NCBI RefSeq assembly: GCF_026343335.1
Contig: NZ_JAPELX010000001.1
Location: 6,014,001-6,078,000, forward strand
Direction: 5' to 3'
DNA length: 64,000 nucleotides
Origin: Streptomyces sp. NBC_00078
Lineage (GTDB): Bacteria; Actinomycetota; Actinomycetes; Streptomycetales; Streptomycetaceae
The notes beneath the pieces are model-generated. The model made no database searches, was not told the origin of the DNA, and saw nothing but the letters and a program-made list of their open reading frames with translations. The position numbers and the translations under genes are program-made. Below are positions 3 to 57,054 of this stretch, piece after piece. Position 1 is the first letter of the stretch, and every line of letters begins with the position of its first letter.

Positions 3-2147
3 ACGGATGCGGGCCGTTCGGCCCCGCAGCCGGAGGACCGCAAGACCGAGACCACACTGACGACCCGGATCCGGATCAACATCCCCGGGTCGCGGCCCAT
101 TCCGCCCGTCGTCGTGCGTACGCCCGTCGCGGACACCGAGGGCTTCGAGGAGACCTCGCAGTCCGAGGGCCAGGCGCCGGGGGCGACCCAGGCCATGGGT
201 ACCGTCGAACCGCCGGGCGAGCCCGCTCCGTCCGCCGAGGGTCCGGCGAGCAACTGGTTCGCGCCCCGCAAGCCGGCTCCCGCCAAGGGCGGTCAGGGCG
301 GCGGCGCCACCAACGGGGCCGGTCTGCCCGGCGGTTCGGGTGCACAGGGCGCGCCCGCCGCGGGGGCCGGGGCTCCTGGCGCGGGCGCCGCTGGCGGCGG
401 TGCACGGCCGGGCGCCGGTCGTCCCGGCGGCGTGGTCGGCTCCATGAGCGTGCCGGGCGGCTCCCGCCCCGGTGGCGCGAACGGCGGCGCTCCCCGCCCC
501 GGCGGGACGAACGGCGCCGGGCTGCCCGGTGCGACCGGCGGGCCGGTGGCTCCCGGGCACGGCGGCGGCACCGGTTCCTTCGACGTCACCGAGGCGCTGG
601 CCGCGGGACCGCTCGGAAACGGCGCGCGTCCCGGCGGCGAACCGCGCCGCGACGACCTGCCGTACTTCTCGGAAGGGGAGCACGGCGTCCCGAACGGGCC
701 GGGCGGCCAGGGCGGCTACGGCGGCGCGAGCGGCTTCAACGGCCCGGGCGGCCACGGCGGCGCGGGCGGCGCCCAGGGTCCCGCGGGCCCGACCGCCGGA
801 CCGGTCATGGGCGACAGCCCCCTGACCGCACCCCTCGGCGGCGCACCCCTCGGTGGCGCCCCTGCCGGACCCGGCTCACATGCCGGACTCGGCGCACCCG
901 CAGGCCCCGGCGGCATGGGCGGCCCGCACGGCGCCGGTCTCGGCCCCGGTGGCGGCCTCAGCGACGACACCGCGATCCTCACACCGCAGAAGCCGGCCCC
1001 GGCGCCGGGCACACAGGGCTACCCGGCCCCGGACAACGTCTCCGGACACACCGTCACCAGCAGCATGCCGGTCGTGCCCACCGACGCCAACTCGCCCTTC
1101 GGGCCCGGCGCCCACACCGACGGCCCGCTGCCGCACACGCCCCCGAAACTGCCCGAGCCGGTCGCACAGAACGTGCCGGCGTCATCCGCACCCAAGAAAA
1201 AGAAGAAGGGCCGCAACAAGCTGGTGCTGGTCGGCACCGGCGTGTTCGTCCTCGGCGGTGTCGCGTACGGCGCCGGGCTGCTGATGAACCACTCCGACGT
1301 ACCCAAGGGCACCACCGTGCTCGGCGTCGACATCGGCGGCGGCACCCGCGACGACGCCGTCAGGAAGCTCGACGAGGCCTTCGGCGACCGGGTGAACAAG
1401 CCGCTGAAGCTGTCGGTCGGCGGTGACACCGTCACCCTCAAGCCGGATCAGGCGGGGCTGCAGTTCGACGAGCAGGCCACCGTCGCCGCGGCCGCGCAGA
1501 GCGACTACAACCCGGTCTCCGTCATCGGCTCGCTCTTCGGCAACCACCGCGTCGTCGACCCGGTGATGCCCGTCGACGAGGAGAAGCTCAGCGCGGCCCT
1601 GAAGACCTCGGCCGGCGGCTCCGGATCGATGACCGAGGGCACGATCGAGTTCAAGTCCGGCAAGGCCGTCGCCGTCTACGGCAAGGCGGGCAAGGGCATC
1701 GACGTCCCCAAGTCGACCGAGGCGGTCAAGGAGGCGTACCGCAACCAGGTGGAGACCAACGCGACCTCCCCGGTGACGGTCGCGACGACGACCCAGCAGC
1801 CGTCGGTGACCAATGCCGAGGTCGACCGCGAGATGAAGGCGTTCGCCGAGCCGGCGATGTCGGGGCTCGTCACGGTCAAGACGGACACGGGTGTCTCGCT
1901 GCCGCTGAGCCCGCAGAACTCCCTGTGGAAGTTCCTCAGGGTCGAGGCCGTCAACGGCAAGCTCGTCGACAAGCCGGACCTCACCGCGCTCAAGGAGCTC
2001 TACGGCGGCCAGTTCAACGGCGTCCTGATCACCCGGGGCACCGGCAAGAAGACGGCCGTCACCCCCCAGGACGTCTATGTCGCCCTGCGCCAGGCACTCC
2101 TGAGCAAGACCAACAGGGTCGGCGTCATCGAGTCGAACCCCAGCTAG
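3..2147 (+). CDS. Membrane-anchored protein with extracellular PG_binding_4-type domain (5' end outside window)
   Basis: The reading frame is open from the first bases of the window, so the true start lies upstream; the GTG at 114 is only an internal candidate. About 350 residues of Gly/Pro/Ala-rich low-complexity sequence are followed by a basic stop-transfer patch (PKKKKKGRNK) and one membrane helix (coding roughly bases 1215-1290). The outside part has two similar alpha/beta segments typical of the putative peptidoglycan-binding domain found beside VanW-type domains (PF12229). I see no VanW or catalytic domain after it. It probably sits in the membrane with a long disordered cytoplasmic tail and touches the cell wall outside; that role is inferred from the family. 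A strong terminator follows directly. Confidence 0.8.
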   Translation, partial: TDAGRSAPQPEDRKTETTLTTRIRINIPGSRPIPPVVVRTPVADTEGFEETSQSEGQAPGATQAMGTVEPPGEPAPSAEGPASNWFAPRKPAPAKGGQGGGATNGAGLPGGSGAQGAPAAGAGAPGAGAAGGGARPGAGRPGGVVGSMSVPGGSRPGGANGGAPRPGGTNGAGLPGATGGPVAPGHGGGTGSFDVTEALAAGPLGNGARPGGEPRRDDLPYFSEGEHGVPNGPGGQGGYGGASGFNGPGGHGGAGGAQGPAGPTAGPVMGDSPLTAPLGGAPLGGAPAGPGSHAGLGAPAGPGGMGGPHGAGLGPGGGLSDDTAILTPQKPAPAPGTQGYPAPDNVSGHTVTSSMPVVPTDANSPFGPGAHTDGPLPHTPPKLPEPVAQNVPASSAPKKKKKGRNKLVLVGTGVFVLGGVAYGAGLLMNHSDVPKGTTVLGVDIGGGTRDDAVRKLDEAFGDRVNKPLKLSVGGDTVTLKPDQAGLQFDEQATVAAAAQSDYNPVSVIGSLFGNHRVVDPVMPVDEEKLSAALKTSAGGSGSMTEGTIEFKSGKAVAVYGKAGKGIDVPKSTEAVKEAYRNQVETNATSPVTVATTTQQPSVTNAEVDREMKAFAEPAMSGLVTVKTDTGVSLPLSPQNSLWKFLRVEAVNGKLVDKPDLTALKELYGGQFNGVLITRGTGKKTAVTPQDVYVALRQALLSKTNRVGVIESNPS

Positions 2148-32737: not shown

Positions 32738-33343
32738 ATGTTCGACGTCGCCGTCTTCGGCTCTCTCTTCCTGACCCTTTTTGTCATCATGGATCCCCCC
32801 GGGATCACCCCGATCTTCCTCGCGCTGACCGCCGGACGCCCCGGCAAGGTGCAGAAGCGGATGGCCTTCCAGGCCGTCTGTGTCGCCGGCGGCGTGATCA
32901 CCGTCTTCGGGCTGCTCGGGCATCAGATCCTCGACTATCTGCACGTCTCCGTGCCCGCGCTGATGATCGCGGGTGGACTGCTGCTCCTGCTCATCGCCCT
33001 CGACCTGCTGACCGGCAAGACCGACGAGCCGAAGCAGACCAAGGACGTCAACGTGGCGCTCGTACCGCTCGGCATGCCGCTGCTGGCGGGTCCGGGCGCG
33101 ATCGTCTCGGTGATCCTCGCCGTGCAGAAGGCCGGCAGTGTGGCCACGCAGGTGTCGGTGTGGTGCGCGATCCTCGCCATCCATGTCGTGCTGTGGCTGG
33201 TGATGCGGTACTCGCTGCTGATCATCCGGGTCATCAAGGACGGCGGCGTGGTCCTGGTGACGCGGCTCGCGGGCATGATGCTCTCCGCCATCGCCGTGCA
33301 GCAGATCATCAACGGCGTCACGCAGGTGATCAAGGGCGCGTGA
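32738..33343 (+). CDS. MarC family integral membrane protein
   Basis: 201 residues from ATG 32738 with six hydrophobic segments. Family landmarks are the N-terminal FLTLFVIMDPPGITPIF, the PLGMPLLAGPGAI motif and the C-terminal RLAGMMLSAIAVQQIINGV. MarC was once linked to multiple antibiotic resistance, but the transport function remains undefined. It follows the PHP gene by 78 bases and may share its transcript. A good terminator follows. Confidence 0.9.
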   Translation: MFDVAVFGSLFLTLFVIMDPPGITPIFLALTAGRPGKVQKRMAFQAVCVAGGVITVFGLLGHQILDYLHVSVPALMIAGGLLLLLIALDLLTGKTDEPKQTKDVNVALVPLGMPLLAGPGAIVSVILAVQKAGSVATQVSVWCAILAIHVVLWLVMRYSLLIIRVIKDGGVVLVTRLAGMMLSAIAVQQIINGVTQVIKGA

Positions 33344-33393: not shown

Positions 33394-33433
33394 CAGAGCC
33401 CCCGTACGGCATCGACGCCGTACGGGGGCTCTG
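33394..33433. terminator. Terminator after the MarC gene
   Basis: A 17-bp perfect stem (33394-33410 with 33417-33433) and a 6-nt ATCGAC loop lie between marC-like and the convergent 50-aa gene. Confidence 0.88.
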
Positions 33434-33458: not shown

Positions 33459-33611
33459 TTACACGGCCGAACTCTCGGCCGGCCGGATCCAGAGCCGCTG
33501 CCCGATGGCTGCAGCCTGCTGAACGATCCGGTTGACGGAGGCGGCGTCCACGACAGTGCTGTCCACGGTCGTGCCGTTGACCTCGTCGAGTCGCATGATT
33601 TCGAAGCGCAT
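33459..33611 (-). CDS. 50-residue conserved protein, probable SigR-regulated gene
   Basis: 50 residues from ATG 33611, with GGAGAGG directly upstream. The sequence (MRFEIMRLDEVNGTTVDST, VNRIVQQAAAIGQRLWIRPAE) has no Cys and no membrane segment, and I recognise no characterised family. An exact GGAAT-N18-GTT promoter motif lies 37 bases upstream, implying expression under thiol-oxidative stress (inference). The upstream 100 bases are unusually AT-rich. Confidence 0.75.
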   Translation of the reverse strand: MRFEIMRLDEVNGTTVDSTVVDAASVNRIVQQAAAIGQRLWIRPAESSAV

Positions 33612-33647
33612 GGCCTCTCCCTTCGTCTCGCTGTGTTCGTAGGAGTC

Positions 33648-33673
33648 AACGGGCTGCGTGTTACAAACATTCC
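33648..33673 (-). promoter_or_regulatory. SigR-type promoter of the 50-aa gene
   Basis: On the minus strand GGAAT (plus 33669-33673), exactly 18 bases, then GTT (plus 33648-33650) equals the Streptomyces SigR consensus. The start point would fall near 33640, giving a ~30-base leader containing the Shine-Dalgarno. Confidence 0.65.
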
Positions 33674-33784
33674 CTACGCTAAAGAAATTTTTCGAACGGC
33701 TAACTACTAGGCGGTAAGCCATCGCGGGGGAGACCGACCGGGACCGGTTGTGTTCGCAGCGTGACCGCCGGGACAATAGAGGCG

Positions 33785-34678
33785 ATGAACGACGACCCCG
33801 TGGCCCTCAGCGCCCGCATCGACCGTACGAACGAGCTACTGCAGCGCATGCTCGCCGAGGTGGCGAAGACACCCTCGACGCATGCGATCTTCGTCGACGC
33901 GGGATACCTGTACGCGGCCGCGGGCCGGCTGGTGGCGGGCACGGAGGACCGGCGCGCCTTCGACCTGGACGCGGAGGGCCTGATCGAGGCACTCATCGAC
34001 AAGGCCCGCACGATCTTCGCGGACAGCCGGCTGCTCCGCGTCTACTGGTACGACGGTGCGAGACGCCGTATCCACACCGCCGAGCAGCAGTCGATCGCAG
34101 AGCTCCCGGACGTGAAGGTCCGGCTGGGCAATCTCAATGCCAACAACCAGCAGAAGGGCGTCGATTCGCTGATCAGGTCGGATCTGGAGTCCCTGGCCAG
34201 ACACCGCGCGATCAGCGACGCTGCCCTGCTGGGCGGCGACGAGGACCTGGTGTCGGCGGTCGAGGCGGCGCAGGGGTACGGGGCGCGCGTCCACCTGTGG
34301 GGCATCGAAGCCCCTGAGGGACGCAACCAGGCGGAGCCCCTGCTCTGGGAGGTCGACAGTCAGCGCACCCTCGACCTCGACTTCTTCAAGCCGTACGTCG
34401 CCCGGCGCACGGCGGCCGCCTACGAGTCCACCGCGGTCCGGCCCACCCGTGAGGGCGTCCGCTTCGTGGGCGCGCAGATCGCGGCGAAGTGGCTGGCCGC
34501 GCGGGGCAGGGAGTCCCTGGTGGAACTGCTGCCCGGACACCCCTACCTGCCGGGCTCGGTGGACCAGGACCTGCTGGTGGAGGCGGAGGGCCTGCTGCAG
34601 TACTCACTGCGCGGCCAGGCGGATCTGCGGCGCGCGCTGCGGGACGGGTTCTGGGAGCACCTGCAGGCGCAGTACTAG
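33785..34678 (+). CDS. NYN-domain (PIN-like) putative RNase
   Basis: 297 residues from ATG 33785. The NYN/PIN-like core runs from THAIFVDAGYLYAAAG (first Asp) through VYWYDGARRR and KGVDSLIRSDLESLA to DAALLGGDEDLVSAVEAA, supplying the four acidic residues of the metal site. The C-terminal ~110 residues (FVGAQIAAKWLAARG, LPGSVDQDLLVEAEGLL) form an added helical domain. It probably cleaves RNA; the target is unknown. GACAAT lies 7 bases before the ATG with no Shine-Dalgarno, so a leaderless transcript is possible. Confidence 0.85.
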   Translation: MNDDPVALSARIDRTNELLQRMLAEVAKTPSTHAIFVDAGYLYAAAGRLVAGTEDRRAFDLDAEGLIEALIDKARTIFADSRLLRVYWYDGARRRIHTAEQQSIAELPDVKVRLGNLNANNQQKGVDSLIRSDLESLARHRAISDAALLGGDEDLVSAVEAAQGYGARVHLWGIEAPEGRNQAEPLLWEVDSQRTLDLDFFKPYVARRTAAAYESTAVRPTREGVRFVGAQIAAKWLAARGRESLVELLPGHPYLPGSVDQDLLVEAEGLLQYSLRGQADLRRALRDGFWEHLQAQY

Positions 34679-34736: not shown

Positions 34737-35615
34737 CTAGCGGGCCTCTGCCCGGTCCCAGAAGTCCGCGAAAGCGCGGGCCGTTTCGAGTGGGTTGTCC
34801 GTGTTCGGTGAGTGTTCGGCGTTCTGGACGATGGTGCGGTGCGCGCGCAGCCGTAGCGCCATGTCGTCGAGCAGGGACACCGCCCAGGTGTCGTCGCGGG
34901 AACCCGACAGGACGTGGAACGGCAGTGGCACGGCGGCCAGATCCGCCACCCGGTCCGGTTCGACGCACAACTGGAGGCCCGTGGCCATGAGCTGGGCGGG
35001 CTTGTTGCCGAGCCAGCGCCGGCGCAGGTCGTCCTGGTCGTCGAGCCCCGCGTCCAGGTCGCCGGTGTCGGTCTCCTCTGGCGGCTCCATGGCCTGGATC
35101 GCTTCCCACACGTCGGCCATGCTCATCACGGCGAGCGCGTCCCGGAGCAGTTTGACGCGCTGCTGCTGGGAGACGGAGATCTGGGCCGGGCCGGAGGCCA
35201 TGAGCGTGAGCGACAGGAAGGGAGCGCGGTCCAGCAGGACGGCGGCCCGCGCGATCTGGCCGCCCAGGGAGTGGCCGACGAGGTGCACGGGGGCGCCGAG
35301 GGCGGCGGCCTGGGCGAGCACGTCCTGCGCCAACTCGGCCTGGGCGTAAGCCGATTCGTCGTCCTGGGGCCCGTCGGACTCGTACTGCCCCCGCCCGTCC
35401 ACCGCGACGGTCCGGTAACCGCGCGCCGAAAGTGCCTCCTGCAGCGGGTTGAAGTCCTCCTTGCTGCCGGTGAAGCCGGGCAGCAACAGCGCGGTCCCCT
35501 TGGGCACGACTCCGTCCGCCACGGGGGAGTCGACGACGGCGAACTCTCCGCGCGCGGTACGCAGCGAGTACGCGCGGGCGCCGGGGGGCGGGGTGAAGCT
35601 CGGGGGCCTGCTCAT
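34737..35615 (-). CDS. Alpha/beta hydrolase
   Basis: 292 residues from ATG 35615. Nucleophile elbow GHSLGG (VHLVGHSLGGQIARA), oxyanion region LLLPGFTGSKEDF, acid in VLSGSRDDTW and catalytic His in QNAEHSPNTDNP are all present. There is no signal peptide. The cap region (residues ~150-210) is acidic and charged. The substrate is unknown. A TAACCT -10 box 6 bases before the ATG and no Shine-Dalgarno suggest a leaderless mRNA. Confidence 0.87.
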   Translation of the reverse strand: MSRPPSFTPPPGARAYSLRTARGEFAVVDSPVADGVVPKGTALLLPGFTGSKEDFNPLQEALSARGYRTVAVDGRGQYESDGPQDDESAYAQAELAQDVLAQAAALGAPVHLVGHSLGGQIARAAVLLDRAPFLSLTLMASGPAQISVSQQQRVKLLRDALAVMSMADVWEAIQAMEPPEETDTGDLDAGLDDQDDLRRRWLGNKPAQLMATGLQLCVEPDRVADLAAVPLPFHVLSGSRDDTWAVSLLDDMALRLRAHRTIVQNAEHSPNTDNPLETARAFADFWDRAEAR

Positions 35616-55075: not shown

Positions 55076-55812
55076 CCAGCACCAGAGCGGGCACCGCGAG
55101 CACCGACGTCCGCACCGGCTTCGGCATCCCCGGCTACGCACACCCCCTCGTCGCCCCCACCGAGTGGGCCGAACTCACCCGCCCCAATACACCCTTGCAC
55201 TGGGTCGTCCTCAACGTGGCCGACGGCCCCGGCTCCCGCCCCGATCCACACTGTCTTGAGGCAGCCGGCCGCCTGCGCAACGCGGGCGTCCGGGTCCTCG
55301 GTCATCTCGACTGCGCGTACGGGGCCCGGGCCTTCGGCGAGGTGATCTCCGACGCGTACCGCCACATCGACTGGTACCAGGTCGACGGCTTCCTCCTGGA
55401 CCGCTGCCCGAGCGAACGCGCCTCGCTCGCCGAGATCCGCCGCACCGTCGGCACGCTGCGCACGATCCGTGACGGTGCCCACATCGTCCTGGGCCACGGC
55501 ACTCACCCGTACCCCGGCTATGCGGACAGCGCCGACCAGATGGTCACCTTCCGCGGCCCCTGGAGCGACTACCGCTGGTCGCAGGTGGCCGAGTGGACGG
55601 CCGGCCATCCGCCCGAGCGCTTCTGCCACTTCGTGCACGGGGTGCCCCGCCCGCATCTGGAGGAGGCACTGCGCATCGCGCGCTGGCAGGGCGCCTCGAC
55701 CATCTACTTCACCGATCACACCGACCGTGGTGGCCGCAGCGACCCCTGGGCGACCATGCCCGGCTACTGGGACGAAATCGTCTCGCGGATCGGAACGGGT
55801 GTCTCGGAATGA
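55063..55812 (+). CDS. Spherulin-4 family protein (GH135-like fold), altered active site
   Basis: 249 residues from ATG 55063, no signal peptide. The TIM-barrel pattern is clear: FGIPGYAHPLVAPTEWAEL, HWVVLNVADGPG, VRVLGHLDCAYGAR, WYQVDGFLLDRCP and ADQMVTFRGPW. In active fungal Sph3 the DE pair at strand 4 and a Glu at strand 5 act in hydrolysis. Here the aligned positions by eye are D113-R114 and R164, so two acids appear replaced by Arg. It may bind rather than cut polymer. Coupled to the epimerase, which argues for a shared polysaccharide pathway. Confidence 0.8.
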   Translation: MPYLTSTRAGTASTDVRTGFGIPGYAHPLVAPTEWAELTRPNTPLHWVVLNVADGPGSRPDPHCLEAAGRLRNAGVRVLGHLDCAYGARAFGEVISDAYRHIDWYQVDGFLLDRCPSERASLAEIRRTVGTLRTIRDGAHIVLGHGTHPYPGYADSADQMVTFRGPWSDYRWSQVAEWTAGHPPERFCHFVHGVPRPHLEEALRIARWQGASTIYFTDHTDRGGRSDPWATMPGYWDEIVSRIGTGVSE

Positions 55813-55875
55813 AGAAGGCCGTGGCAGTGTTACGGGGAGAACAACTGTAGTGATTGACCGACCAACGGAGTCCCC

Positions 55876-57054
55876 GTGTCGCTGCCACCCCTGGTCGAGC
55901 CCGCTTCTGAGCTCACCGTAGACGAGGTCCGCAGGTACTCCCGCCACCTGATCATCCCCGACGTGGGGATGGACGGGCAGAAGCGGCTGAAGAACGCCAA
56001 GGTGCTCTGTGTGGGCGCCGGCGGCCTGGGCTCGCCGGCGCTGATGTACCTGGCCGCCGCGGGCGTCGGCACGCTCGGCATCGTGGAGTTCGACGAGGTC
56101 GACGAGTCGAACCTGCAGCGCCAGATCATCCACAGCCAGGCCGACATCGGCCGCTCCAAGGCAGAGTCCGCGCGCGACTCCGTCCTGGGCATCAACCCGT
56201 ACGTGAACGTGGTCCTTCACGAGGAGCGGCTCGAGGCCGACAACGTGCTGGACATCTTCAGCCAGTACGACCTGATCGTCGACGGCACGGACAACTTCGC
56301 GACCCGCTACCTGGTCAACGACGCGGCCGTGCTGCTCAACAAGCCGTACGTGTGGGGTTCGATCTACCGCTTCGACGGCCAGGCCTCCGTCTTCTGGTCC
56401 GAGCACGGCCCCTGCTACCGCTGCCTCTACCCGGAGCCCCCGCCGCCGGGCATGGTCCCCTCCTGCGCCGAGGGCGGCGTCCTGGGCGTGCTGTGCGCGT
56501 CCATCGGCTCCATCCAGGTCACCGAGGCCATCAAGCTCCTCGCGGGCATCGGCGAACCCCTGGTGGGCCGCCTGATGATCTACGACGCCCTGGAGATGCA
56601 GTACCGCCAGGTCAAGGTCCGCAAGGACCCCGACTGCGCGGTCTGCGGCCCGAACGCGACCGTCACCGAACTCATCGACTACGAGGCCTTCTGCGGCGTC
56701 GTCTCCGAGGAGGCCCAGGAGGCCGCCGCCGGTTCGACGATCACTCCCAAGCAGCTCAAGGAGTGGATCGACGACGGCGAGAACATCGAGATCATCGACG
56801 TCCGCGAGATCAACGAGTACGAGATCGTCGCGATCCCCGGCGCCAAGCTGATCCCGAAGAACGAGTTCCTTATGGGCACCGCCCTGGAGAGCCTCCCGCA
56901 GGACAAGAAGATCGTCCTGCACTGCAAGACGGGTGTCCGCAGTGCGGAAGTCCTCGCGGTCCTGAAGTCCGCGGGCTTCTCCGACGCCGTGCACGTCGGC
57001 GGCGGCGTGATCGGCTGGGTCAACCAGATCGAGCCCGGCAAGCCGGTGTACTAG
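55876..57054 (+). CDS. moeZ: Adenylyltransferase/sulfurtransferase MoeZ
   Basis: 392 residues from GTG 55876, with ACGGAG 5 bases upstream. The N-terminal ThiF/MoeB domain has VLCVGAGGLGSPAL, SNLQRQIIH and zinc Cys pairs CYRC and CAVC. The C-terminal rhodanese domain has the active-site loop HCKTGVRS with C350. MoeZ adenylates and thiocarboxylates small sulfur-carrier proteins (CysO, MoaD, ThiS), serving cysteine, molybdopterin and thiamine synthesis. M. tuberculosis Rv3206c is equivalent by context. A terminator follows. Confidence 0.95.
   Translation: MSLPPLVEPASELTVDEVRRYSRHLIIPDVGMDGQKRLKNAKVLCVGAGGLGSPALMYLAAAGVGTLGIVEFDEVDESNLQRQIIHSQADIGRSKAESARDSVLGINPYVNVVLHEERLEADNVLDIFSQYDLIVDGTDNFATRYLVNDAAVLLNKPYVWGSIYRFDGQASVFWSEHGPCYRCLYPEPPPPGMVPSCAEGGVLGVLCASIGSIQVTEAIKLLAGIGEPLVGRLMIYDALEMQYRQVKVRKDPDCAVCGPNATVTELIDYEAFCGVVSEEAQEAAAGSTITPKQLKEWIDDGENIEIIDVREINEYEIVAIPGAKLIPKNEFLMGTALESLPQDKKIVLHCKTGVRSAEVLAVLKSAGFSDAVHVGGGVIGWVNQIEPGKPVY

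Follow-up and report, generated by a model that had tools for sequence, protein, structure and literature searches.

The locus raises a simple question: what switches on a 50-codon gene that carries no recognisable domain, and does this gene belong to the thiol-oxidative stress regulon? The gene, P0001, lies on the minus strand of the 64,000-nucleotide stretch of Streptomyces sp. NBC_00078 DNA analysed here (the window; C1:6014001-6078000 of the genome). It occupies positions 33459..33611 with the stop included and runs from an ATG at 33611-33609 to a TAA at 33461-33459 (50 codons). A first-pass annotation had called it an uncharacterised gene, placed it behind an exact SigR promoter, and proposed it as a new small member of that regulon.

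P0001 evolves as a protein-coding gene under protein-type selection. Across 81 Streptomyces sequences, pN/pS is 0.17 (mean pS 0.24, mean pN 0.041), and the columns that fall below a 95% majority number 7, 2, and 26 at codon positions 1, 2, and 3, respectively (of 45 each). BLAST identified a P0001-type gene in 136 of 150 genomes of the Streptomycetaceae family. A profile search added 7 of the 14 BLAST-negative genomes (E 8.8e-7 or better), which brings the gene to 143 of 150. The selection on the protein and its distribution bear out the earlier gene call. A recognisable copy is missing from seven genomes of 5.4-7.7 Mb, which are possible gene losses: G044, G098, G113, G116, G125, G146 (g1), and G022 (g8). 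In a 296-genome sample of the class, we found no convincing homologue outside the family; four weak partial matches lie in long frames (E 0.002-0.008). The genome itself encodes no P0001 paralogue, the next match after P0001 having an E of 0.45. A mobile or phage origin was considered and rejected, as the gene matches no phage record and its one plasmid-record match is a 3.1-Mb Embleya replicon.

The lack of a known domain, also claimed by the first-pass annotation, was confirmed: P0001 matches no Pfam or NCBIfam family at E up to 1. Stray profile matches to three families (best E 0.024) appear among the 24 members of alignment A2. P0001 is a small, family-wide protein missed by the domain libraries searched. 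The window copy contains no Cys, as had been stated, and some orthologues do contain Cys (L077-L079, L085, L095, and many copies in group g14). Residues E4, A33, A34, G37, R39, I42, R43, and P44 are invariant in the 24 chosen members. An AlphaFold2 model of P0001 has a beta-beta-alpha-beta topology (mean pLDDT 89). Searches of the PDB with this model returned no significant match by Foldseek (best E 0.1) or by VIA-align (best Z 5.1 over 45 residues at 2.5 A). The weak fold matches, which include PII, T7 Gp2, RepB, and linkers of the phycobilisome, are unremarkable for so small a fold and were disregarded. In g14 loci such as L170, L205, and L212, a Pro/Arg-rich upstream frame looks open on visual inspection and continues into the small reading frame. 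Given these longer open frames, translation in these genera may begin further upstream, or the protein may be coupled to a leader peptide.

The neighbourhood of P0001 is conserved. The 149 loci compared keep a stable gene order, with a hydrolase gene followed by the small gene and then by MarC and/or PHP. In the window, a convergent gene for a MarC family membrane protein (32738..33343, plus strand; Pfam accession PF01914, E 1.3e-46) faces P0001. Between the two lies a 17-bp hairpin (33394..33433) that is a probable bidirectional terminator, with folding energies of -39.1 kcal/mol (z -8.65) on one strand and -39.9 kcal/mol (z -9.40) on the other. The hairpin has no T run, and a consensus terminator scan that requires one found nothing at this site. 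On the other side, a divergent gene for an NYN-domain protein (33761..34678, plus strand; PF01936, E 1.5e-7) begins at 33761 or, equally possibly, at an ATG at 33786. Beyond it lies an alpha/beta hydrolase gene (34737..35615, minus strand; PF12697, E 1.6e-20), which is the next upstream same-strand gene in relatives that lack the NYN gene.

The promoter named by the first-pass annotation is exact. A GGAAT -35 element (33669..33673, minus strand) and a GTT -10 element (33648..33650, minus strand) are separated by 18 nt, so that GGAAT-N18-GTT spans 33673-33648. GGAAT begins 62 nt before the P0001 ATG, and exactly 36 nt lie between GTT and ATG. The published SigR consensus is GGAAT-N18-19-GTT (PMC9205884). 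The window contains three exact motifs against 0.31 expected, a number that 0 of 100 shuffles reach. Genome-wide (9.33 Mb), we counted 77 exact matches, compared to 16 when the motif is reversed. Most exact matches are therefore real, yet about one in five, taken alone, may be due to chance. A third exact motif (78-103, minus strand) sits at the window edge, and overlaps a plus-strand frame; any gene under its control would lie beyond the window.

The genome encodes the components expected of a SigR system. RsrA is encoded at 6119520 (TIGR03988, above the curated cut-off), and a reading frame just upstream that appears by eye to be a sigma-factor gene carries its own GGAAT-N19-GTT. Another exact site in the window (55806-55831, plus strand) ends 44 nt before a moeZ/moeB-type reading frame (55876-57054). 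A SigR-type site precedes this gene in all 30 genus genomes that have it. An exact site at C1:6088328 precedes a reading frame of the CGYC mycoredoxin type, and mycoredoxin is a member of the SigR regulon. The gene moeB is a known SigR target (PMC9205884), and a citing paper credits Kim et al. (2012) with 108 SigR ChIP targets.

The SigR-type promoter is conserved together with the gene. We assembled the best 80 of 257 relatives found (L031-L110, all titled Streptomyces), a set that leans to near relatives because it is the best of 257. A site with an 18-19 nt spacer precedes the gene in all 80 (79 exact N18, one N19). In 71 of these, the exact site lies within 130 nt upstream; in the other nine it lies further out or, in one case, has the N19 spacer. 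An even sample of 31 genus genomes gave the same picture: 30 have the gene, all 30 have the site, and 28 have it with exact N18. When 81 rows are aligned on GGAAT, this element is 100% conserved, GTT is 99-100% conserved, the C just before GTT (33651) is 84% conserved, and the centre of the spacer is variable. The alternative that a chance site precedes a reading frame that is not a gene draws on the reversed control, by which roughly 16 of the 77 matches in the genome are to be expected. It is refuted by the conservation of both site and protein. Because of the motif controls and the orthologue conservation, we regard the site as more than chance and the SigR-type promoter of P0001 as very likely functional.

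Control by this promoter is not uniform across the family. We collected 190 family leaders, comprising the 80 Streptomyces loci, 109 of 135 non-own BLAST-positive loci, and the window; some species may be represented in both the 80 and the 109. GGAA[TC]-N17-19-GTT occurs within 330 nt in 155 of the 190 leaders. As controls, the reversed motif occurs in 1 of 190 and a version with a 24-26 nt spacer in 2 of 190. By group, the site is found in Streptomyces (80/80), g1 (31/31), g7 (11/13), g14 (13/35), and g3 (5/14). It is missing or broken in 35 of the 190 leaders: 22 of 35 in g14, 9 of 14 in g3, 2 of 13 in g7, and the one copy each in g12 and g17. The gene thus does not depend on SigR everywhere, which would mean that, in some genera, strict SigR control is younger than the P0001-type gene or is dispensable for it.

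Conservation extends beyond the promoter elements. A nearly invariant block (33674..33706, minus strand; window letters TAGTTAGCCGTTCGAAAAATTTCTTTAGCGTAG) abuts the -35 element. The block is composed of TTAG, an A-tract, and TTTAGCGTAG, and contains two TTAG motifs 21 bp apart. In 29 genomes, 17 of its 33 columns are invariant, with a mean of 1.55 bits per column. The SigR-type promoter of mycoredoxin has 1 invariant column of 33 and a mean of 0.41 bits per column in the same genomes. The moeZ promoter, which gave a mean of 1.72 bits, failed as a control because it sits inside the last part of the coding sequence upstream, and it was replaced by mycoredoxin. A 23-bp pattern made of the proximal block and GGAAT has a single genomic match when up to three mismatches are allowed. 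Since the conservation reaches well past what SigR needs, part of it has another cause. The near-invariance of about 33 bp upstream of the -35 element is newly described here and suggests a candidate second cis element or a UP-like A-tract.

One such cause could be the divergent NYN gene, whose promoter would merely overlap the block. The intergenic region 33706-33786 is common to the NYN gene and P0001, and an NYN promoter there may overlap the conserved block. The NYN gene is inserted divergently in most Streptomyces; in 114 of 149 loci it is no more than 1.5 kb away, and 111 of these 114 match a loose block pattern, as this explanation would predict. However, the block is intact in loci in which no NYN gene was found (for example, L109, L137, L139, L140, L165, L166, L178, and L179). 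In total, 11 of 35 NYN-less loci match the loose pattern, and most of the others are g14, g3, and g11 loci, which have the other arrangement. The block is therefore more than an NYN promoter, and we consider this explanation of it quite unlikely.

A second alternative concerns the sigma factor. S. coelicolor encodes 59 sigma factors (PMC9205884), and a second ECF factor could use the promoter, with the block as part of that promoter or as an activator site and only a small role for SigR. This would account for a nearly invariant block that extends 33 bp past the -35 element. It also fits published diamide arrays of S. coelicolor, which showed no change at 46 of 50 further GGAAT-N16,19-GTT sites (PMC2375139). 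Leaders of g14 and part of g3 add a further point in its favour: NNGACA-N17-TAATNT, which by eye is of the housekeeping type, stands at the same place. There the block position reads GTTAG-N5-GTAAT, and on visual inspection GACA stands 17 nt ahead of TAATNT. The housekeeping-like and SigR-like sites are nevertheless separate in g14, since 13 of 35 leaders keep a full GGAA[TC]-N17-19-GTT, in every case exactly 20 nt further downstream. Moreover, the boxes and spacing agree with the published SigR consensus, and the Streptomyces spacer is fixed at 18-19 nt while its bases vary. Exclusive or dominant use by another ECF factor thus seems unlikely to us, and SigR remains the preferred candidate for the core promoter. 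On one reading, an older housekeeping-type -10 element (GGTAATATTTG in g14) may have been turned into the SigR -35 element (GGGAATGTTTG) in Streptomyces.

The first-pass annotation had also described a short leader with a good ribosome site. This holds for the window, where the predicted leader is about 30 nt (33612..33641, minus strand), with a start placed about 7 nt after GTT from SigR promoter geometry. The ribosome-binding site AAGGGAGAGG (33614..33623, minus strand) lies directly before the ATG, and its AAGGG is invariant in 39 aligned orthologous leaders. Among the Streptomyces orthologues, the short leader is a minority form. Besides the window copy, 9 of the 80 relatives have predicted leaders of at most 45 nt, and the 80 have a median of 74 nt and a maximum of 139 nt. 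In 71 of 80 Streptomyces orthologues, a hairpin and GACCAGACGAAGGGAG lie between promoter and ATG (for example, L047:2939-3000). This hairpin is missing from the window copy (33612-33641), which has no predicted structure (z +1.1), and from nine relatives.

The hairpin precedes the ribosome site and typically reads AGTAGTTCTCC-TCA-GGAGGATGACCAGACGAAGGGAGAAGCC, followed by the ATG. In the 39 of 80 leaders counted, 97.8% of cells pair. One pair is doubly changed (in 3 sequences), a level that 113 of 500 shuffles reach, and single sequences are unremarkable (z +0.4 and -1.4). Mean folding z-scores are weak at +0.52 for 25 short, -0.71 for 86 mid-length, and -1.28 for 44 long leaders. The element before the ribosome site is likely a hairpin and not a riboswitch.

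The long leaders of relatives contain further conserved letters. A gap-free block, CGAAACC-N-GG..TTTACGG..GGGCAAC...GAAGCAG, is present in g14, g11, part of g3, and L159 (the rows of alignment A3), and similar letters occur in L068, L109, and L158. A3 holds 32 of 47 extracted elements; the 15 left out are 11 near-duplicates and four g3 copies with a different core (L145, L222-L224), and their omission makes the invariant columns of A3 look better than they are. RNAalifold predicts no consensus pairs for A3, and a proposed A3 hairpin pairs in 70.5% of cells, above its own slid versions. Searches of these long leaders against Rfam gave no match at the gathering score (10 and 16 sources). At E up to 5, L169 (2600-3000) had none and L068 (2780-3060) had two sub-threshold matches. 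A riboswitch, at first suspected in these leaders, is thus supported neither by Rfam nor by RNAalifold, and no structure of the block is well supported. We also considered whether the leaders encode a conserved upstream frame; by eye, the frames differ between clades.

Published work connects what is probably the same gene to nitrogen. By SCO numbering, the gene order presumably agrees with P0001 being SCO5163. Upstream of SCO5163, at -141 to -168, Lewis et al. (2011) list GTAAC and GTAAT with 17 nt between them (PMC3073908). The same GTAAC-17-GTAAT arrangement lies at -168 to -142 of the P0001 orthologue in L061 and L100. These upstream coordinates and the gene order make SCO5163 a likely orthologue of P0001, with Sven_4809 as its probable counterpart in S. 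venezuelae. The gene is reported to be induced by nitrogen limitation in both S. coelicolor and S. venezuelae (PMC3073908, PMC3087709), a behaviour that the first-pass annotation had not anticipated. Pullan et al. give a 12.5-fold induction by nitrogen starvation and a 3.7-fold repression by ammonium for Sven_4809/SCO5163 (PMC3087709).

These data make GlnR an obvious candidate, acting on P0001 as part of the nitrogen regulon through an upstream pair of a-sites of the nasA type. Both the proposed GTAAC-17-GTAAT element and the response to nitrogen limitation speak for this assignment. However, SCO5163/Sven_4809 appears neither among the 21 genes changed more than 5-fold in the GlnR-dependent Table 2 nor in the GlnR ChIP Table 3 of the S. 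venezuelae report (PMC3087709). The absence is weak evidence, because glnK (Sven_5280), a GlnR target in S. coelicolor that is 16-fold induced, is likewise missing from Table 2, and the promoters of eight homologues of known GlnR targets are not enriched in Table 3 (PMC3087709). The conservation of the sites is more telling. GTAAC-N17-GTAAT, counted in the published arrangement only, occurs in 4 of 80 orthologues, compared to 80 of 80 for the SigR-type site. The nitrogen response may well bypass the proposed GlnR element, and membership of the gene in the GlnR regulon through this pair appears decidedly doubtful.

Taken together, the results describe P0001 best as a gene of the whole family, probably induced by nitrogen starvation, whose composite promoter contains a SigR-type core. 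We consider this explanation as a whole, which includes a Streptomycetaceae core gene with a cytosolic 50-aa product, to be probable. RNA polymerase with SigR, or with an ECF sigma factor that recognises the same promoters, would transcribe P0001 from GGAAT-N18-GTT, and the one-gene mRNA would end at the hairpin common to marC. A second regulator would most likely act through the roughly 33-bp block next to the -35 element. The composite promoter could respond to thiol or translation stress through SigR, and to nitrogen starvation through another input or through SigR itself. Thiol-stress induction, and with it the proposed membership in the thiol-oxidative regulon, is a plausible prediction, but similar sites have a mixed record, as the 46 of 50 S. 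coelicolor sites without a diamide response show.

The function of the protein is the weakest step of this proposal. P0001, with its beta-beta-alpha-beta fold and conserved E4, A33-A34, G37, R39, and I42-R43-P44, might contact a larger stress or housekeeping machine. A role as a small adaptor or regulator is at best tentative, and because no fold match is significant it amounts to a guess. An extended scenario, which strikes us as unlikely, would have SigR and a second regulator on the fixed block join thiol/translation stress to nitrogen starvation independently of GlnR. It would also have one lineage rewire a core stress gene by promoter-element conversion, and the protein act as a new small stress adaptor. 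In 2011, the regulation of SCO5163 was left open or credited to a possible GlnR element; a SigR-type promoter with a second conserved element is the alternative offered here. This SigR-type promoter, which all Streptomyces orthologues analysed retain, makes it possible to test whether thiol stress and nitrogen starvation are connected.

Like the GlnR regulon, the P0001 orthologue is induced by nitrogen starvation and repressed by ammonium; unlike that regulon, its proposed a-sites are poorly conserved and it is missing from GlnR tables that are themselves incomplete. P0001 shares both boxes and their spacing with members of the SigR regulon (moeB, sigR-rsrA, and mycoredoxin). The distance from GGAAT to ATG is also similar: 62 nt for P0001, and in most cases some 70-76 nt for the two controls, moeZ and mycoredoxin. 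P0001 differs from this regulon in its upstream block, which the mycoredoxin promoter lacks, in the published response of its orthologue to nitrogen starvation, and in a protein without thiol chemistry. SCO5163/Sven_4809 is very probably the same gene as P0001. The published passages on it deal with nitrogen and GlnR, to which this analysis adds a SigR-type promoter and its conservation.
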